Part shown: positions 1-45,569 of the stretch, piece by piece
Position numbering within the stretch: position 1 is the stretch's first letter
Layout of the letters: each line of letters opens with the position of its first letter
Assembly: GCA_018970765.1 (NCBI GenBank)
Contig: JAGWVT010000014.1
Span: forward strand, 1-45,569
DNA length: 45,569 nt
Direction: 5' to 3'
Source: Actinomycetales bacterium
Lineage (GTDB): Bacteria > Actinomycetota > Actinomycetes > S36-B12
The notes under the pieces: model-generated
Seen by the model: only the letters and a program-made list of their open reading frames with translations
The model's database searches: none
Told to the model about the DNA's origin: nothing
Made by a program: the position numbers and the translations under genes

Positions 1-53
1 CCCACCATGCTTTGGGCCCGATGCTGCATGTATACCCACCCCCCAGAGAGCAA
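1..53. repeat. 53-bp tandem repeat unit at the left end
   Basis: This unit starts CCCACCATGC, then GATGCT, TATAC, a C6 run and AGAGAGCAA. It matches, with substitutions and a one-base shift of the internal blocks, two further 53-bp units at the right end (45464-45516 and 45517-45569). Joining the ends puts all three in uninterrupted tandem. Because 53 is not a multiple of three and the frame shifts between units, the constraint is on DNA and not on protein. Packaging site or tandem late promoters (a TATAC at nearly the same place in each unit) are both reasonable inferences. Confidence 0.85.
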
Positions 54-120
54 CAGGTCTTGCCAGTGGCGTGGCGCTACGGTAGGGTTGCGGGAGCCGC
101 AGTGACGGCAGAGGTGGCAT

Positions 121-501
121 ATGGGCGCAGTGAGGACGATGGGACGGCGACGGTTGGAGCGGGAGCGGCGCAACGCGCAACTGCAAAAAACATTGAGTTT
201 TTATTTTAACCGAGCACGGATTCGAGCAAACGAGGTGTTGGAGTTGCAGGGCCGCGTGCGTGAGTTGCAGGCGTTGCTAGCGGACCCAGAGGGAACGATT
301 CAGCGGGGGCTGAACGAGCGGTATCGGAACGACATGAGGCAGCGGGAGTTGGAGCACCATGCGTCATGGGACGCGGAAGTGGTGGTGCACAAGATGGCGG
401 CTGCGCGGTGGATGCGTGGGCAGGCGTCTGCGGTGGCGACGGTAGCGGGGGACTTGGCGGTGGCGGCAGAGATTGAGGCGTTGCCGTTGGTGCCCGAGTG
501 A
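121..501 (+). CDS. Small basic/coiled-coil protein, first gene of the late operon
   Basis: A protein of 126 residues with an Arg-rich N-terminus (RRRLERERR near residue 10), a predicted helical middle (VLELQGRVRELQALL) and an Ala/Val-rich end. I do not recognise a family. A GAGGTGG ribosome-binding site lies 4 bases before the ATG; an in-frame ATG at 139 is an alternative start. Its GTGA overlap with the next gene and position between the terminal repeats and terL suggest a packaging or DNA-binding role, but that is context only. The 67 bases between the terminal repeat and this gene hold no obvious promoter apart from the repeats themselves. Confidence 0.7.
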   Translation: MGAVRTMGRRRLERERRNAQLQKTLSFYFNRARIRANEVLELQGRVRELQALLADPEGTIQRGLNERYRNDMRQRELEHHASWDAEVVVHKMAAARWMRGQASAVATVAGDLAVAAEIEALPLVPE

Positions 502-824
502 AGCCGTGCGCGACGCCGTTGTGTGACGGAGAGGCCAAGCGGGCTGCGATGTGCCGGCGTTGTCGTGAGCGGGCTCGAGAGCAGACGCCTGAGAGGAAGG
601 CGTGGGCGACGAAGTACCGGAAGACGAAGAGGTACCGGGAGTTGCATCGGCGGGCGAGCCAGGACTACCGGGATGCAGGGAAGGTGCAGCGGGGGGAGTG
701 CGTGGATTGCGGCGGGGCGACGAACGACACGAGGGCGTTGCGGTGCTTGGCGTGTTATCGGGCGCGGGTGTTGCCGGCAGCGAGTCGGCGAGGGTTGATA
801 GCGATTCACGGGAGGCCGGTATGA
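498..824 (+). CDS. Small zinc-ribbon protein
   Basis: The 108-residue product starts at a GTG that overlaps the previous stop (GTGA). It has an N-terminal pair C4/C9 with C19-x2-C22 and a C-terminal pair C66-x2-C69 with C82-x2-C85, separated by a very basic, Tyr/Arg-rich helix (residues 38-62). This is a two-half zinc-binding layout resembling treble-clef or HNH-like phage proteins, but no catalytic His-Asn-His is visible, so a nuclease role is not supported. Tight coupling on both sides supports it being a real gene of the packaging-proximal operon. Confidence 0.65.
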   Translation: MKPCATPLCDGEAKRAAMCRRCRERAREQTPERKAWATKYRKTKRYRELHRRASQDYRDAGKVQRGECVDCGGATNDTRALRCLACYRARVLPAASRRGLIAIHGRPV

Positions 825-1135
825 GGGAGGAGTTGCTGGCGCTGAAGACGCGGCTGGAGCAGTTGCGCTGGGAGGGGAAGACGGACGAGGACATCGACGC
901 TGCGTACTGGACGGTGGATCGGGCGCTGGAGGGGCGCGGGTGGGGGACGCCGACTGCGGCGCTGGAGTACGGGCGCGAGGTGGTGGCGCGGTACGACCAG
1001 GCGTTGCGGAAGAAGGTGGAGTTGCAGACGCGAGCGCTGACGAAGGAGGAGCACGACGCGCTGCTGGCGTCGGATGCGCCGAAGTCGGTGTCGCGCGAGG
1101 ATTATGAGCGCATGATGCGGGAGGCGCAGGAATGA
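821..1135 (+). CDS. Hypothetical acidic helical protein
   Basis: The start is the ATG at 821, because a GGAGG lies 5 bases before it and it makes an ATGA overlap with the upstream stop; longer in-frame extensions have no such support. The product is 104 residues, charged and mostly helical. Its C-terminus (SREDYERMMREAQ) closely resembles a segment in the next gene product (SPEEYREMMRAQMEEA), suggesting a shared short binding motif or a diverged duplication. No family is recognised. Confidence 0.7.
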   Translation: MREELLALKTRLEQLRWEGKTDEDIDAAYWTVDRALEGRGWGTPTAALEYGREVVARYDQALRKKVELQTRALTKEEHDALLASDAPKSVSREDYERMMREAQE

Positions 1136-1497
1136 CTTGGTTTAAGAGTGTGTGGCGTCGGTTTTTCACTTGGGTTGCGTCATGGTTTGTAGAGCCGCCG
1201 CGTGAGCCGCCCAAGCCGCGTTGGGACGAGTCGGCGCAGGATTTGATCAGCCTTGCGCGCAGGGTGAAAGAGGCGCGATGGAAGGACATTCCAGATCCCA
1301 AGAGCGTTAACCACATTTCGCCGGAAGAGTACCGGGAGATGATGCGAGCGCAGATGGAAGAGGCGACTGATGAGTCGTTGCCGCCGCGTGTTCATCGCAG
1401 CGCCTCGTTTAGGCATTGCATGGATGCGGTAGAGCGCGACAGAAAGGCTGCAATGGAGGCGCAAAAACAGCCGCTGACGCTCAAGGTTCAGAAATGA
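1132..1497 (+). CDS. Hypothetical protein with amphipathic, Trp-rich N-terminus
   Basis: The product has 121 residues and starts by ATGA overlap with the upstream gene. Its first 20 residues are rich in Trp, Phe and basic residues (WFKSVWRRFFTWVASWF), which could be a membrane-associating amphipathic helix. The middle carries the PEEYREMMRAQ motif also seen at the end of the upstream protein. It abuts terL with another ATGA overlap, so it is translationally coupled to the packaging motor. Function unknown. Confidence 0.7.
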   Translation: MTWFKSVWRRFFTWVASWFVEPPREPPKPRWDESAQDLISLARRVKEARWKDIPDPKSVNHISPEEYREMMRAQMEEATDESLPPRVHRSASFRHCMDAVERDRKAAMEAQKQPLTLKVQK

Positions 1498-2999
1498 CCA
1501 AGGAAGAACTCGACCGCTTGATCGCCAAGATGACGCCGACTGAAAAGTCGGAGTTCTTTGCCTTGATTGCGGCTGAGAAGAAAGAGCCGGTGTTCAAGGA
1601 CGTGGCGTTCAAGGCGCAGACGGCGTTCTTGGAAGATCAGGCGCGCATGAAGGTGGTGTTGTGTACTCGCCGCTCGGGCAAGTCGTACGGCGCCGGCCTG
1701 ATGCTGATGCGCGATGCGTATGAGACACCCAACGTGTCGTGCTTGTACGTGGCGCTGACGCGAGCGTCCGCCAAGCGGATCATGTGGAAGGACGTGCTGA
1801 AGACGATTGATCGTGAGCAGGCGCTTGGGTGCCGGTTCAACGAGACTGAGTTGTCGGTGACGTTGCCCAACGGGAGCATGATCTACCTCCTTGGCATGGA
1901 CGCGGACGAGCAGGAAAAGGACAAGGCGCTCGGTCAGAAGTTCAAGAGCGTGGTGATCGACGAGGCGGCGTCCTACGGCGTGGATTTGCACGAGATGGTG
2001 TACGGCATCTTGAAGCCGGCGACGGCGGATTATCGCGGCACGATTGCGATGATCGGAACGCCGGGAAACATGAAGCGCGGGCTGTTCTACGACTTGACGA
2101 AGGGCCAGGTTCCCGGCGAGGCGGGTCGCTGGGAGAAGATGGGTTGGAGCGGCCATCGGTGGACGGCGTTTGATAATCCGCACATGGCGGACAAGTGGAA
2201 GGCAGAGATTGAGGATTTGAAGCTGGCAAACCCGCTGATTGAGGAAACGCCGCTGTTCCAGCAGCACTACCTCGGCAAGTGGGTGATCGACGACAGCAAC
2301 CTCGTGTACCGTTTTGACTACGAGAAGAACACGTTTGACGAGTTGCCGCCGATCACGAAGAAGGGGCGCTGGCACTATGTGCTGGGGATCGACCTCGGGT
2401 TCAACGATCCGACTGCGTGGGTGGTGTGCGCGTATCACGACAGCGACCGGACCCTGTATGTGCTCGGGGCGCACAAGAAGGAGAAGTGTGACATCACCGA
2501 GGTCGCGGACCAGACGCGGAAGCTGATGGGACGCTTTGACTTTGACCGGATTGTGATCGACAACGCGAACAAGCAGGCGGTCGAGGAGATGCGGCGTCGG
2601 CACGACATCCCGCTTGTGGGCGCAGAGAAGGCGGGCAAGGCCGACTTCATGGAACTGATGAACGGCGACTTTGTGAGCGCGCGGATCAAGCTGCACAAGA
2701 AGGCCGCTGCGCCGCTGATTGACGAGTACTCGCAACTGATCTGGGACGACCGGAGCCAGAGGCGCGAGGAGCATCCTGGGTGCGCCAACCACTGCACGGA
2801 TGCGGCGCTGTACGCATGGAGGCACTGCTACGCCTACCTGTCGGACATGAGGCAGGACAACGGGTTACGCTACGGCAAGAGCGAGGATGAGTGGATGCTG
2901 TTGCAGGAGGAGCAGGAGTTGGAGCGACTGCTGCAAGAGAAGCGGAACATGGAAGCGGAGATTGAGTTGTACGGCGATCCGCTGGATCGGCTGAATTGA
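1494..2999 (+). CDS. terL: Terminase large subunit (DNA-packaging ATPase/nuclease)
   Basis: A 501-residue motor that pumps DNA into the procapsid and cuts the concatemer. From the ATG at 1494 (ATGA overlap) the sequence shows a Walker A-like CTRRSGKS at residues 57-64, Walker B VVIDEA at 153-158, a coupling motif (MIGTPG) near 186-191, and the RNase H-like nuclease aspartates at D300 (GID), D356 (VIDNAN) and D436 (HCTDAA). This is the full ATPase-nuclease order of tailed-phage TerL. The longer upstream reading frame is rejected because the coupled ATG fits better. The small subunit is far away at 42667-43080, close only if the ends are joined. Confidence 0.97.
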   Translation: MTKEELDRLIAKMTPTEKSEFFALIAAEKKEPVFKDVAFKAQTAFLEDQARMKVVLCTRRSGKSYGAGLMLMRDAYETPNVSCLYVALTRASAKRIMWKDVLKTIDREQALGCRFNETELSVTLPNGSMIYLLGMDADEQEKDKALGQKFKSVVIDEAASYGVDLHEMVYGILKPATADYRGTIAMIGTPGNMKRGLFYDLTKGQVPGEAGRWEKMGWSGHRWTAFDNPHMADKWKAEIEDLKLANPLIEETPLFQQHYLGKWVIDDSNLVYRFDYEKNTFDELPPITKKGRWHYVLGIDLGFNDPTAWVVCAYHDSDRTLYVLGAHKKEKCDITEVADQTRKLMGRFDFDRIVIDNANKQAVEEMRRRHDIPLVGAEKAGKADFMELMNGDFVSARIKLHKKAAAPLIDEYSQLIWDDRSQRREEHPGCANHCTDAALYAWRHCYAYLSDMRQDNGLRYGKSEDEWMLLQEEQELERLLQEKRNMEAEIELYGDPLDRLN

Positions 3000-3074
3000 T
3001 GGGGCGTCGTCTAGATGGCAGGACAGCGGACTTTGACTCCGCGAACCTTGGTTCAAATCCAAGCGCCCCAACCA
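3000..3074 (+). tRNA. tRNA-Gln (anticodon UUG)
   Basis: The gene begins one base after the terL stop. It folds as a standard cloverleaf: acceptor TGGGGCG/CGCCCCA, 3-bp D stem GTC/GAC, anticodon stem GCGGA/TCCGC with loop CTTTGAC (anticodon TTG), and T stem CTTGG/CCAAG with TTCAAAT loop. Discriminator A is at 3071 and CCA is encoded at 3072-3074. It reads CAA, a codon likely to be minor in a GC-rich host. It must be processed out of the late polycistronic transcript. Confidence 0.96.
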
Positions 3075-27304: not shown

Positions 27305-27392
27305 TGGTAGGCGCGGTCGGAGTTGAACCGACAATTCCTCAAGAGGAAACAGGTTTTGAGTCTGCCGTGTATCCCAGTTCCACCACGCGCCC
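27305..27392 (-). tRNA. tRNA-Leu (anticodon CAA)
   Basis: On the minus strand: acceptor GGGCGCG/CGCGCCT (first pair G-T), D stem GTG/CAC, anticodon loop CTCAAAA, long variable arm with stem TTCCT/AGGAA as expected for a class II tRNA, and a perfect T stem GTCGG/CCGAC. The anticodon stem has one A-C mismatch and a G-T pair, so folding is slightly weak. CCA is encoded at 27305-27307. It reads UUG, a Leu codon used often in this genome. Confidence 0.93.
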
Positions 27393-34712: not shown

Positions 34713-34943
34713 TCAGTTCAGATTGCTGCGGTTGGCGGCGTCGATGGTCAGGTCGTGCAGGAGAACCCGGCGGGAAAGGCAGGCGTGGCCGTAGCGGCAG
34801 ACGAAACCCGCAAACTCCTCCTCGTCCATGTCGCCGTCGTAGCGGGCCTGCGCCGCCTGCAACAACTGGATGCCGCGCAGTTGCTCCTCGCGCTTGGCCT
34901 GCTCCAACACGCCGTCCGGGTCGATGGCGGAAACCTTACGCAT
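34713..34943 (-). CDS. Small hypothetical protein upstream of bet
   Basis: A 76-residue protein with features EQAKREEQLRGIQLLQAAQA, an acidic DGDMDEEEFAGF patch and two Cys. It is predicted mostly helical. Overlaps the first operon gene by 8 bases. No family recognised. Confidence 0.65.
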   Translation of the reverse strand: MRKVSAIDPDGVLEQAKREEQLRGIQLLQAAQARYDGDMDEEEFAGFVCRYGHACLSRRVLLHDLTIDAANRSNLN

Positions 34944-35100
34944 CGTTCACCTCGCTCTCGAGGATGGAGCGGAGTTCGCGCGCCCACTTGAGCGCCATCT
35001 CGCCCACGAGGTTCGGGTGCTCGTCCGCCTGCCGGATCATCAGATCGGCTACCAACGTAGCCAAGGCGTTCTTGCGGGTTTCGCGTTGCTGCTCGGTCAC
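34936..35100 (-). CDS. First gene of the leftward operon, 54-residue helical protein
   Basis: Starts at the GTG ending at 35100, 7 bases after AAGGAG. Sequence features: TEQQRETRKNALATLVADLM, then VGEMALKWARELRSILESEV. It is the promoter-proximal gene, about 30 bases from the predicted transcription start, and could be an early regulator or host-takeover peptide, but nothing identifies it. Confidence 0.7.
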   Translation of the reverse strand: MTEQQRETRKNALATLVADLMIRQADEHPNLVGEMALKWARELRSILESEVNDA

Positions 35101-35136
35101 TGTGTCTCTCCTTGGTCGCTCACTGCGACGGGATGC

Positions 35137-35165
35137 ACTCTAGCCATGTCCGCTTGTCGCGTCAA
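35137..35165 (-). promoter_or_regulatory. Sigma70-type early leftward promoter
   Basis: On the minus strand: -35 TTGACG (35165-35160), 17-bp spacer, -10 TAGAGT (35142-35137). A perfect inverted repeat, CCATGTC (35144-35150) and GACATGG (35174-35180), brackets the -35 box and could be an operator for the divergent Cro-like regulator. On the plus strand, TTGACG (35245-35250) with a weak TGTACC (35267-35272) is a poor candidate promoter for that regulator. Confidence 0.75.
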
Positions 35166-35292
35166 AATAAATCGACATGGTGGACGCAAGTGCTTGATTT
35201 TGCGGGCATCCATGCCGTCGAGATCTAAAGGCGTCACGCCACACTTGACGACGGCGGCTGCGCTGGTGTACCTCGCCGGCAGGAGGTCATGC

Positions 35293-35514
35293 ATGACGCT
35301 GGCAGAGTGGATCAAGCGGGAGCGGTCGTCGCAGAGCGAGGTGGCTCGCCGCCTGGGCGTGAAGCGCCAAGCTGTGCAGCAGTGGTGCGCCAAGACGACG
35401 ACGCCGACGCTCTACTACGCGCTGGCGCTGTGCGCGATCACTGGAGGCGAGGTGCCGCCGGACTCGTGGCTGGACGCCAAGGAGCGTGCGGCGTTGCGGG
35501 GCCTGACGGCGTGA
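35293..35514 (+). CDS. Cro/YdaS-like helix-turn-helix regulator
   Basis: A 73-residue protein starting at ATG 35293, 6 bases after AGGAGG (the ATG at 35289 is out of frame). It opens MTLAEWIKRERSSQSEVARR and continues LGVKRQAVQQWCAKTTTPTL, a standard helix-turn-helix with the turn around residue 22-25. It is divergent from the recombination operon, the typical place for an early switch protein. No partner repressor or integrase is present, so it need not imply lysogeny. Confidence 0.85.
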   Translation: MTLAEWIKRERSSQSEVARRLGVKRQAVQQWCAKTTTPTLYYALALCAITGGEVPPDSWLDAKERAALRGLTA

Positions 35515-35757: not shown

Positions 35758-35797
35758 GAGAGCGTGTTCGATGGCGGCTACCATCGGATGCGCTCTC
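35758..35797 (+). promoter_or_regulatory. Structured 5' leader upstream of the replication initiator
   Basis: Nested perfect stems: outer GAGAGCG/CGCTCTC and inner CGATGG/CCATCG around a 6-base loop, each separated by 4-base internal loops. It is followed by TGTCTTTTGG. A smaller stem, CCGCTG/CAGCGG, precedes it at 35704-35721. Candidate attenuator, terminator or small RNA. Confidence 0.6.
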
Positions 35798-35842
35798 TGT
35801 CTTTTGGTGACCCATGCATCACGTTCAACGCTGGAGGCTCTT

Positions 35843-36742
35843 ATGAGTCTCCCTTGGATCAGGATCTACAACGACCTGCCGGATCATCCCAAGAGTGACC
35901 ACTTGGCGGCACTGCTCAACGAGCCTCGCGCCTGGACTCACGTTGTTGAGTTGTGGCTCTGGGTGTCTCGCGTGCGCCCGGATGGGAGCCTGACGGGCCT
36001 GCATCCGGTCGTCATCGCCCGTCGAGCCGGCTGGGGCGGCGATCCGATTACGTTCGTTGACGCCATGCGTCAGGCAGGATTTATCGACGGCGACCAGATC
36101 CACGCATGGGTGGAATATCAGGGCGCGCACGCAAAAAAGCTGGAAAAAGATCGCACCCGCATCCGTCAACTACGCGACACAAATAAAAATGTCGCCGCGA
36201 CACTCCCTGCGACACCCTCCGCGACAGTCGTCGCGACACTCCCTGCGAGCGTCGCGGGGAGCGTCCCCCCGTTAGAGGAGATGAGAGGAGAAGAGAAGAT
36301 AAAGAACAACAACCTTGCGCTTTTCGAAAATCGAAAAGACGCGGCGCCGGTCGAGGAGGTCAAGCCCCGTCGAGGACGCCCGCCGAAGGACAAGTCCCCG
36401 GAGGCTGAGGCCGAGCGCGTGGCTGAGAAGGCAGACGGCGACCGCTGGATGGACGCCGCTCGCAAGCTCACCGGCCTGACCGCCGACGAGCTTCGCTGGA
36501 ACACCGGGGCGTGGATGGGCTTCCGGAGGCAGCGCAAGGCGCGGGGCATGGATCAACTCATGCGGGCGCTCGAGGGCCTGGAAGCCGATGCTTTCGCCAA
36601 GACCGCCGGCCTTGGCTACCTCGTCAGCGACAACGGGATCACCAAGGGCCTCGCCAAGTGGAACAAGGGCGCATCGGGCGTCCATGTCAGCCGTACGGTT
36701 CACGTCGTTGGCAACGGCGAGTCGTTCGACAAGTTTCTTTAG
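35843..36742 (+). CDS. Replication initiator (replisome organiser-like)
   Basis: A 299-residue protein starting at ATG 35843 after GGAGG; the 24-codon extension to 35771 would be translated from the leader stem-loop and is rejected. The N-terminus (LPWIRIYNDLPDHPKSDHLA, RAGWGGDPITFVDAMRQAGF) resembles winged-helix phage replication proteins. A low-complexity linker (ATLPATPSATVVATLP) encodes origin-like DNA iterons. The C-terminal half is helical and basic. Followed by a DnaC-like loader, as in lambda-type O/P modules. Confidence 0.8.
   Translation: MSLPWIRIYNDLPDHPKSDHLAALLNEPRAWTHVVELWLWVSRVRPDGSLTGLHPVVIARRAGWGGDPITFVDAMRQAGFIDGDQIHAWVEYQGAHAKKLEKDRTRIRQLRDTNKNVAATLPATPSATVVATLPASVAGSVPPLEEMRGEEKIKNNNLALFENRKDAAPVEEVKPRRGRPPKDKSPEAEAERVAEKADGDRWMDAARKLTGLTADELRWNTGAWMGFRRQRKARGMDQLMRALEGLEADAFAKTAGLGYLVSDNGITKGLAKWNKGASGVHVSRTVHVVGNGESFDKFL
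36174..36338. other. Candidate replication origin inside the initiator gene
   Basis: GCGACA occurs at 36174, 36197, 36209, 36221 and 36233, the last four exactly 12 bp apart, with a fifth degenerate GCGAGC at 36245. Next come a purine-only-like, AT-richer stretch (about 36274-36312) and a perfect palindrome, CTTTTCGA/TCGAAAAG (36320-36338). Iterons, an asymmetric unwinding tract and a palindrome within the initiator coding region mirror lambda-type origins. No functional proof. Confidence 0.65.
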
Positions 36743-42666: not shown

Positions 42667-43080
42667 TTGAACCGCAAATCTGACGCACTCACTTTGAAAC
42701 AGGAAAAATTCCTAGAGGAGTACCTCAAGGACAAAAACGGCTTCCAGGCCGCGATCCGTGCCGGTTATTCGCCCAACACCGCGAAAAATGCCGCTGCGCA
42801 TAATCTGCAAAACGCGATCATCGCCTCTAGGATCGACGCCGCAAATCGCAAATCCATTCAACGGGCGGAGGTCGATGCCGCTTTTGTTATTCGCGAACTA
42901 AAGAGGGTCGCGGAGCAGGAAGATGTCGCGCAGTCGACAAAAGTGCGCGCCCTGGAGCTCATCGCCAAGCATCTCGGGATGCTGGAAGACCGCGTTAGCG
43001 TCAAGGTGGACGGCCTTACGTCAGAGCAGCGCGCGGAGCGGGTTGCGATACTCCTCGAGCGGGTCAAGTCGCGCGAATAA
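42667..43080 (+). CDS. terS: Terminase small subunit
   Basis: A 137-residue protein, starting at TTG 42667 after AAGGTG. The N-terminus LTLKQEKFLEEYLKDKNGFQ then AAIRAGYSPNTAKNAAAHNL is the helix-turn-helix DNA-recognition domain of Terminase_2-type small subunits; the middle (AAFVIRELKRVAEQED) and end form the oligomerising helices. It should recognise the packaging site and recruit TerL. Repeated motifs begin at its stop codon. Confidence 0.92.
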   Translation: MNRKSDALTLKQEKFLEEYLKDKNGFQAAIRAGYSPNTAKNAAAHNLQNAIIASRIDAANRKSIQRAEVDAAFVIRELKRVAEQEDVAQSTKVRALELIAKHLGMLEDRVSVKVDGLTSEQRAERVAILLERVKSRE

Positions 43081-43434
43081 GTGCGACGGGATGCAGGCTG
43101 CGCGTCTGACTTGGAAAGTGCGCGACTGAAAGAGACAGAGATCTCTGTACGAGCCCGCGCGCGATCCCAGAATTACCTCTAGTGCGTAGACACAGTCAAG
43201 GGGGGAGAAGTACTTGTGTGTAACCGGCCGGAATCAGGCCGCCAAAAAGTGCGCTATGTCTATGCGTGGACTAAAAAGTGCGCCTCTTGTGGTAGCAAAA
43301 GTGCGATCAAAATGAGAAAAACGCACTCCCTGTGTGGGTCTTCCACTGCCAGTTAATGTATGGATAGAGTAAAAACTGCGCCCGTCCGCTACTGGCGCGG
43401 CCTTTAGCGGATTGTGCGCCGCAACAAAAGTGCG
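43077..43434. repeat. Noncoding block with repeated A-tract + GTGCG motifs
   Basis: Within 43081-43448, which has no gene, A-tract plus GTGCG occurs at 43077 (AATAAGTGCG), 43115, 43244, 43273, 43297 and 43426, with an inverted copy (CGCACT after AAAAA) at 43317-43327 and a variant AAAAACTGCG at 43371. A perfect 14-bp palindrome, ACAGAGATCTCTGT, lies at 43135-43148. Candidate TerS (pac) binding array, iterons or operator array. Confidence 0.8.
43341..43370 (+). promoter_or_regulatory. Putative promoter before gene 43449
   Basis: TTCCAC (43341-43346), 18-bp spacer, TAGAGT (43365-43370). The -10 equals that of the early leftward promoter; the -35 is weak. GTGCG repeats lie on both sides, so binding there could control it. 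Confidence 0.4.
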
Positions 43435-43688: not shown

Positions 43689-43717
43689 AAAAGGCCCCGG
43701 CCCTAAGACCGGAGCCC
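43687..43717 (-). terminator. Rho-independent terminator of the minus-strand small-gene operon
   Basis: On the minus strand an 8-bp stem (GGCTCCGG with CCGGGGCC, one T-G pair) with an 8-base loop, followed by TTTTTT. It lies just beyond the stop of the last minus-strand gene and overlaps the end of gene 43449. Confidence 0.85.
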
Positions 43718-45219: not shown

Positions 45220-45248
45220 ATCCTAGTGGTGTGGTGCCACGCTGTCAA
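45220..45248 (-). promoter_or_regulatory. Sigma70-type promoter of the minus-strand small-gene operon
   Basis: On the minus strand: perfect -35 TTGACA (45248-45243), 17-bp spacer, -10 TAGGAT (45225-45220). Start near 45213. Divergent from whatever transcribes the terminal repeats and late operon. Confidence 0.8.
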
Positions 45249-45262
45249 GCAACCATTTTCGG

Positions 45263-45538
45263 GTGACACCTAAGCCCTCGAAAACACTGCGAACCGTGCG
45301 CGACGAAACTAGGGCGCGGCTCCGATGCCAGGGCGCGGGACGTGCGACGCTGGCGGTCAGGGTCGTGCGGCAGGTGCGCCGTGCGCGGTACCCCGGCGGC
45401 AGGCGATGCCCGTCGTGCCGCGATGCGTCAAGCCAGGCCTCGAGCCCTACCCCTACCCCCCCCCCCACCATGCGCGCGCGGGATTACTTCAATATATATA
45501 CACCCCCCAGAGAGTACCCACCATGCTTGGTGGCGTGA
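45263..45538 (+). CDS. Doubtful reading frame running into the terminal repeats
   Basis: A 91-codon frame from GTG 45263 without a ribosome-binding site. The first 60 residues are Arg-rich with a CPSC pair (TVRDETRARLRC, RYPGGRRCPSC) and mostly G/C-ending codons, so they might be real; the rest translates the poly-C tract and 53-bp units and looks like noise. Confidence 0.25.
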   Translation: MTPKPSKTLRTVRDETRARLRCQGAGRATLAVRVVRQVRRARYPGGRRCPSCRDASSQASSPTPTPPPTMRARDYFNIYTPPREYPPCLVA

Positions 45539-45569
45539 TGCTACGCTTATACTACCCCCCACAGAGCAA
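45464..45569. repeat. Two 53-bp tandem repeat units at the right end
   Basis: Units 45464-45516 and 45517-45569, each 53 bp, start CCCACCATGC and end with a TATAC, C6, (A)AGAG block. With unit 1-53 they make three tandem copies across the joined ends. An 11-C run (45456-45466) runs into the first unit. Each unit has a TATAC/TATACT that could act as a -10 box. Confidence 0.85.

Follow-up and report, generated by a model that had tools for sequence, protein, structure and literature searches.

The window analysed here is a single contig of 45,569 nucleotides, taken whole from a 3-Mb assembly of 238 contigs. It begins and ends inside a tandem repeat, and the question that this locus raises is what such a repeat does between the two terminase genes of a phage. 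The first-pass annotation had favoured packaging sites recognised by TerS, of the lambda cosB R-site kind, and had given tandem late promoters as the alternative.

A 53-bp repeat across the joined contig ends

The three units of the repeat and the two terminase genes are located as follows.

45464 to 45516, plus strand: unit 1, with a CCAT box from 45468, TATATATAC containing TATAC at 45497-45501, C6 and AGAGAGTA
45517 to 45569, plus strand: unit 2, with a CCAT box from 45521, the putative operator GTGATGCTAC, TATACT at 45548-45553, C6 and ACAGAG
1 to 53, plus strand: unit 3, with CCAT at 5-8, TATACC at 31-36, C6 at 39-44 and AGAGAG at 45-50
42667 to 43080, plus strand: terS (PF03592, Terminase_2)
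1494 to 2999, plus strand: terL

All three 53-bp units share an identical CCCACCATGC, and when periods of 20-200 were scanned, period 53 starting at 45464 and crossing the junction gave the best tandem signal in the contig (z = 6.1), so the units reported initially are real. Their pairwise identities are low, at 24, 32 and 22 of 53 positions, with the identity concentrated in blocks. These blocks do follow one another in the order originally described, but C6-AGAG is not present in every unit, as unit 2 reads CCCCCC-ACAGAG, and TATAC recurs at only roughly the same place, starting at unit positions 34, 32 and 31. Likewise, the array does lie between terS and terL, but it does not immediately adjoin terS as had been thought.

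It had also been proposed that the period is exact only if the two contig ends are adjacent. It can be seen that unit 3 matches the last 53 bases of the contig best at offset 0 (32/53), compared with a mean of 13.7 (sd 3.1) at other offsets and a maximum of 27 elsewhere on the right end, and the period is indeed exact only with the ends joined. Four IMG/VR loci with TerL 95-98% identical (L004, L005, L006 and L010) run unbroken from the terS side through the array into the first late gene; we conclude that the contig ends are contiguous in nature.

The exact 10-mer CCCACCATGC has no further copy in the window, and across the 3-Mb assembly there was no further match to CCCACCATGC-N15..27-TATAC, nor was the strict block found in its remainder. 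As the block has no other copy in the assembly, we abandoned the idea that C6/AGAG copies host rRNA promoters, with the reservation that the assembly lacks a 16S gene. The RpoD of the assembly is nearest to those of Candidatus Nanopelagicales and other actinobacteria, and the assembly is regarded as a putative host only.

A TerL scan of IMG/VR yielded 39 relatives. The best TerL match among deposited phages was about 28% identical, a similarity search of the region against deposited phages returned nothing, and neither a set of 84,980 species genomes nor 58 related genomes yielded a relative by TerL. The phage group is known only from uncultured phages, and all of the comparisons made here therefore rest on IMG/VR fragments, from related loci that are not independent of each other. 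For some of these (L006, L009, L010, L019, L028, L031, L033 and L041) the terL match falls into two segments some 700-800 bp apart, covering residues about 1-460 and 442-527, which may reflect an intron or an inserted gene.

Layout, spacing and copy number of the units

The repeat is not confined to this contig: units were found in 20 loci, and in about 20 relative loci they share the same order: a box resembling CCATCGTTCT comes first, then a spacer that varies freely in sequence, then TATAC, a run of C and AGAGAGTA-like bases. The distance from CCAT to TATAC is 25-29 bp in 36 of the 37 units in the 20 loci, even though the spacer sequences are unrelated, and the lone exception (43 bp, in L011) is outside the array. 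Unit 1 is the most conserved, being present, with a CCAT-to-TATAC distance of 26-29 bp, in the relatives that have a TerL identity of 71% or more and contigs spanning the site; it is this unit in particular, with its TATATATAC, that the distant relatives (TerL 71-79%) retain. When the blocks were sought under relaxed settings in the window and 384 kb of relatives, 46 of 47 matches lay between terS and terL on the strand of the late operon, against about 10 scattered matches in local shuffles, the blocks having been defined on the same sequences in which they were counted. Outside the phage group, nine block matches in IMG/VR were isolated and had no array.

TATAC, which is close to TATAAT and would serve as the -10 element, is found in nearly all units and is followed by a discriminator of 6-8 nt and a purine. 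Some units of relatives (L014, L015) have a sequence near TTGACA at the right distance for a -35 element; in unit 1 a CCATCGTTCT-like box replaces it, at a fixed distance upstream of the -10. Judged on sequence, this combination of near-fixed spacing, free spacer and uniform downstream direction is the signature of a bipartite promoter. The reading as tandem late promoters, which the first-pass annotation had ranked second, is thus well supported by the relatives, and it is strengthened by an interleaved operator that had been missed earlier. A generic sigma70 scan found no promoter in window positions 1-1600 and, since unit 1 and its homologues are without a TTGACA-like -35, the units would need a special factor; no sigma70 region-4 protein or phage sigma factor was found on the contig.

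The number of units varies. L004, L006 and L010 carry two, the change being one clean 52-bp indel between TATAC and TATAC, and unit number therefore differs by exactly one between phages with TerL 95-98% identical. This indicates that the array gains and loses whole units.

We also asked whether the array could be a replication origin, in which the AT-rich TATATATA in unit 1 would be the melting element and the units would be repeated initiator sites. Unit 1 nearly always has TATATATAC, and the units look iteron-like at first sight, but their copy number drops to one or two, bipartite spacing is not an iteron trait, and the array points strictly in the direction of the late genes. Since there is also a lambda-ori-like cluster of 12-bp repeats at 36195-36248, within the gene for a replication-initiation protein (35771-36742), we regard an origin in the array as highly improbable. 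The 12-bp repeats adjoin a purine-rich stretch and are a candidate for a lambda-like origin in their own right.

A palindrome interleaved with the putative promoters

A palindrome, GTRRYRYYAC (GTAGCGCTAC, GTGACGCCAC), is interleaved with the units, lying either between them or within them. Three of its four occurrences in the window fall in the array region, and these three are listed here with the signals around them.

45535 to 45544, no strand assigned: palindrome GTGATGCTAC, in the spacer of unit 2
71 to 80, no strand assigned: palindrome GTGGCGCTAC, in the spacer of the last promoter
45231 to 45240, no strand assigned: palindrome GTGGTGCCAC, in the spacer of the leftward promoter
45220 to 45248, minus strand: putative leftward promoter TTGACA-17-TAGGAT, sigma70-type, with the putative operator in its spacer
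43692 to 43717, minus strand: terminator-like hairpin and T-run that would end the leftward transcript
34870 to 35514, plus strand: HTH_3 protein with a C-terminal HTH, the sole candidate regulator seen for the palindrome and only putatively linked to it

In 19 relatives the palindrome has a density of 0.62/kb inside the terS-terL interval and 0.035/kb outside it (40 against 4 sites, an 18-fold difference). Eleven of the 40 sites lie in or against a strong promoter (TTG-16..18-.A, at least 9/12), compared with 2.5% of random positions in the same intervals; the corresponding P of about 2e-9 assumes independence and, as the loci are related, is optimistic. The palindrome is absent from unit 1 and is not recognisable in unit 3. 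Its position also varies. In some phages it occupies the spacer, a position from which a bound protein should repress, while in others it is found immediately upstream of the -35, from where such a protein could activate. A wide pattern (TTGAC-N1..16-GTAGCGCTAC) was discarded as too loose, with contigs scattered among the matches listed.

The leftward promoter has homologues with the palindrome in L003, L004, L006, L012, L014, L015 and L036, and it heads a run of small ORFs that ends at the terminator-like hairpin. The terS operon and this leftward operon converge on 43692-43717, so that the rightward late operon appears to begin at the array.

The putative last promoter and the leader hairpin

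Between the array and the first late gene are two further features.

60 to 88, plus strand: putative last rightward promoter TTGCCA-17-TAGGGT, sigma70-like, with a predicted start at about 95
96 to 109, plus strand: hairpin GCCG-CAGTGA-CGGC, where the late mRNA is predicted to have its 5' end, immediately ahead of the Shine-Dalgarno sequence of ORF 121-501

In the window the TTGCCA of the last promoter only approximates a TTGACA -35. At the same site, L020, L023, L027 and L031 have TTGACA or TTGACG, a 16-17 bp spacer and a palindrome directly upstream. The hairpin has a loop of CAGTGA or CAGTAA, and its stems covary, differing between phages yet remaining complementary (GCCG, GCGG, TGCGG, CCGTCG, TCCGTCG). 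In the window and relatives (431 kb) there are 22 such hairpins on the plus (late) strand and 0 on the minus strand, and in most relatives having both elements the -10 of the last promoter lies 6-7 nt upstream of the hairpin, which fixes the register and predicted start site of this promoter. Further examples of the leader hairpin are at L023:4106, L011:2544 and L031:440, and a similar hairpin lies within the late operon at L219:11307 and L218:9776. The CAGUGA loop is reminiscent of the loop of the iron-responsive element. A search of Rfam found no known RNA in the leader and only two tRNAs in the window; these phage tRNA genes are at 3000-3071, directly after terL, and at 27308-27392.

A hairpin-anchored start is a property of the last promoter alone and, together with the lack of a canonical -35 in unit 1, it might suggest that the shared blocks are only the site of a phage regulator (an operator or insulator), with transcription starting solely at 60-88. 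The fixed spacing of the box, the 6-8 nt that separate TATAC from a conserved purine start and the correctly placed TTGACA of some copies (L014, L015) all fit promoters, and we consider a regulator site without promoters distinctly unlikely.

The array and DNA packaging

The units lie in tandem between terS and terL and this contig ends inside the array, which would fit TerS recognition sites (pac, or cosB R-site-like) at or next to a physical genome end. The contigs of several relatives also begin or end in or near the array (L018, L020, L022, L024, L028, L029, L216 and L009/L203), and contig ends of relatives are overrepresented at or close to the array and leader, where about 8/21 of left ends fall. 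However, the break points differ, over some 300 bp, where cos would give one, and the contigs of other relatives run through the array. We suggest that the differing break points reflect assembly trouble with C-runs and variable copy number. The right end of L203 and the left end of L009, from one sample, are 2 nt apart at the leader hairpin and do not overlap; a physical end at the hairpin was set aside because other contigs break elsewhere.

The form of the units also argues against packaging sites. Lambda cosB has an IHF site and three R sites, of which R2 has the opposite orientation to R3 and R1 (PMC4669245), whereas all units of the array have the same orientation and consist of two boxes and a free spacer. 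Some lambda-like phages have a simple cosB, so that the orientation of the units only lowers the case for a packaging role. In addition, the parts of the array are accounted for by promoter and operator signals, and terS is 2.4 kb away, past the leftward operon. A better candidate for a TerS site is found at the 3' end of terS itself.

42940 to 43434, plus strand: AAAGTGCG repeated six times in direct orientation, starting within terS and reaching the following gene, a rival candidate TerS or packaging site

In 12 relatives AAAGTGCG occurs near the terS end in 38 forward and 0 reverse copies (4.0/kb, compared with 0.08/kb elsewhere), but in the most distant relatives the copy within terS is the sole one retained. 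The pac site is inside terS in P22, and in SPP1 it flanks the cut (PMC9611059). The AAAGTGCG cluster may possibly be a TerS or packaging site, or else a set of operators. We conclude that the favoured reading of the first pass is not supported, that packaging sites in the array are unlikely, and that the search for such a site shifts from the array to the terS 3' repeats.

A model for late transcription

Taking these observations together, we think it probable that the repeat consists of phage promoters in tandem from which the 27-kb late operon is transcribed, and that a phage regulator acts on the interleaved palindrome. In this model each unit would be one promoter. The conserved box (CCATCGTTCT to CCATGTTTGACA) would cover the -35 region, and a spacer free in sequence but almost constant in length would separate it from TATAC, the -10; a C-rich discriminator would follow, with transcription starting at the conserved AGAGAGTA. 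The operon would carry the head, packaging and virion genes, and the sigma70-like promoter at 60-88 would be its last promoter, immediately ahead of the first late gene. Binding of a phage regulator to GTRRYRYYAC would switch the rightward set and the leftward promoter (45248-45220) jointly, much as in a divergent control region of the lambda type. GC-rich discriminators reduce the stability of open complexes at mycobacterial promoters and with mycobacterial RNAP (PMC10232725); the C-rich discriminator would similarly be expected to make open complexes unstable and leave the units dependent on activation or supercoiling. Recombination between copies would add or remove whole units, and this could tune late expression.

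More tentatively, the array may represent an undescribed class of late promoter in a group without a cultured relative. In such promoters a CCATCGTTCT box would substitute for the -35, the discriminator would be C6 and the start AGAGAGTA; they would be served by a putative phage factor and arranged in a recombining array whose unit number sets late expression. The locus provides a map of how late genes may be controlled in an uncultured phage group, one that can be tested, and its natural series of one to three promoter units could be used to ask how promoter copy number tunes a late operon.

Comparison with known systems

Arrays of this kind are known, but the particular promoter elements are without a match in the deposited phage records searched. 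The array resembles the lambda cosB R sites and SPP1-type pac in having repeated sites in the terS-terL interval; it differs from them in its single orientation, bipartite units, free spacer and interleaved operators, and in that no single terminus was found among contig ends.

T4 middle promoters depend on an activator and have a box where the -35 would normally be. The units are similar in that a non-TTGACA box at about -40 to -31 stands at a fixed spacing from a normal-looking -10, and dissimilar in that the sequence of the box is unrelated, the units are in tandem and change copy number unit by unit, the discriminator is C-rich and the activator is putative.

In a divergent operator region of the lambda type, repressor sites overlap sigma70 promoters. 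The array, unlike such a region, controls by our model two operons, the late and packaging one and a small leftward one, and not an integration or immunity region (no tyrosine integrase was found on the contig), its promoters are themselves tandem repeats and its regulator is only a candidate. Like a lambda-type region, it has a palindromic operator repeated in or beside opposing sigma70-type promoters in one intergenic region, with the palindromes overlapping the promoters and concentrated in the control region.
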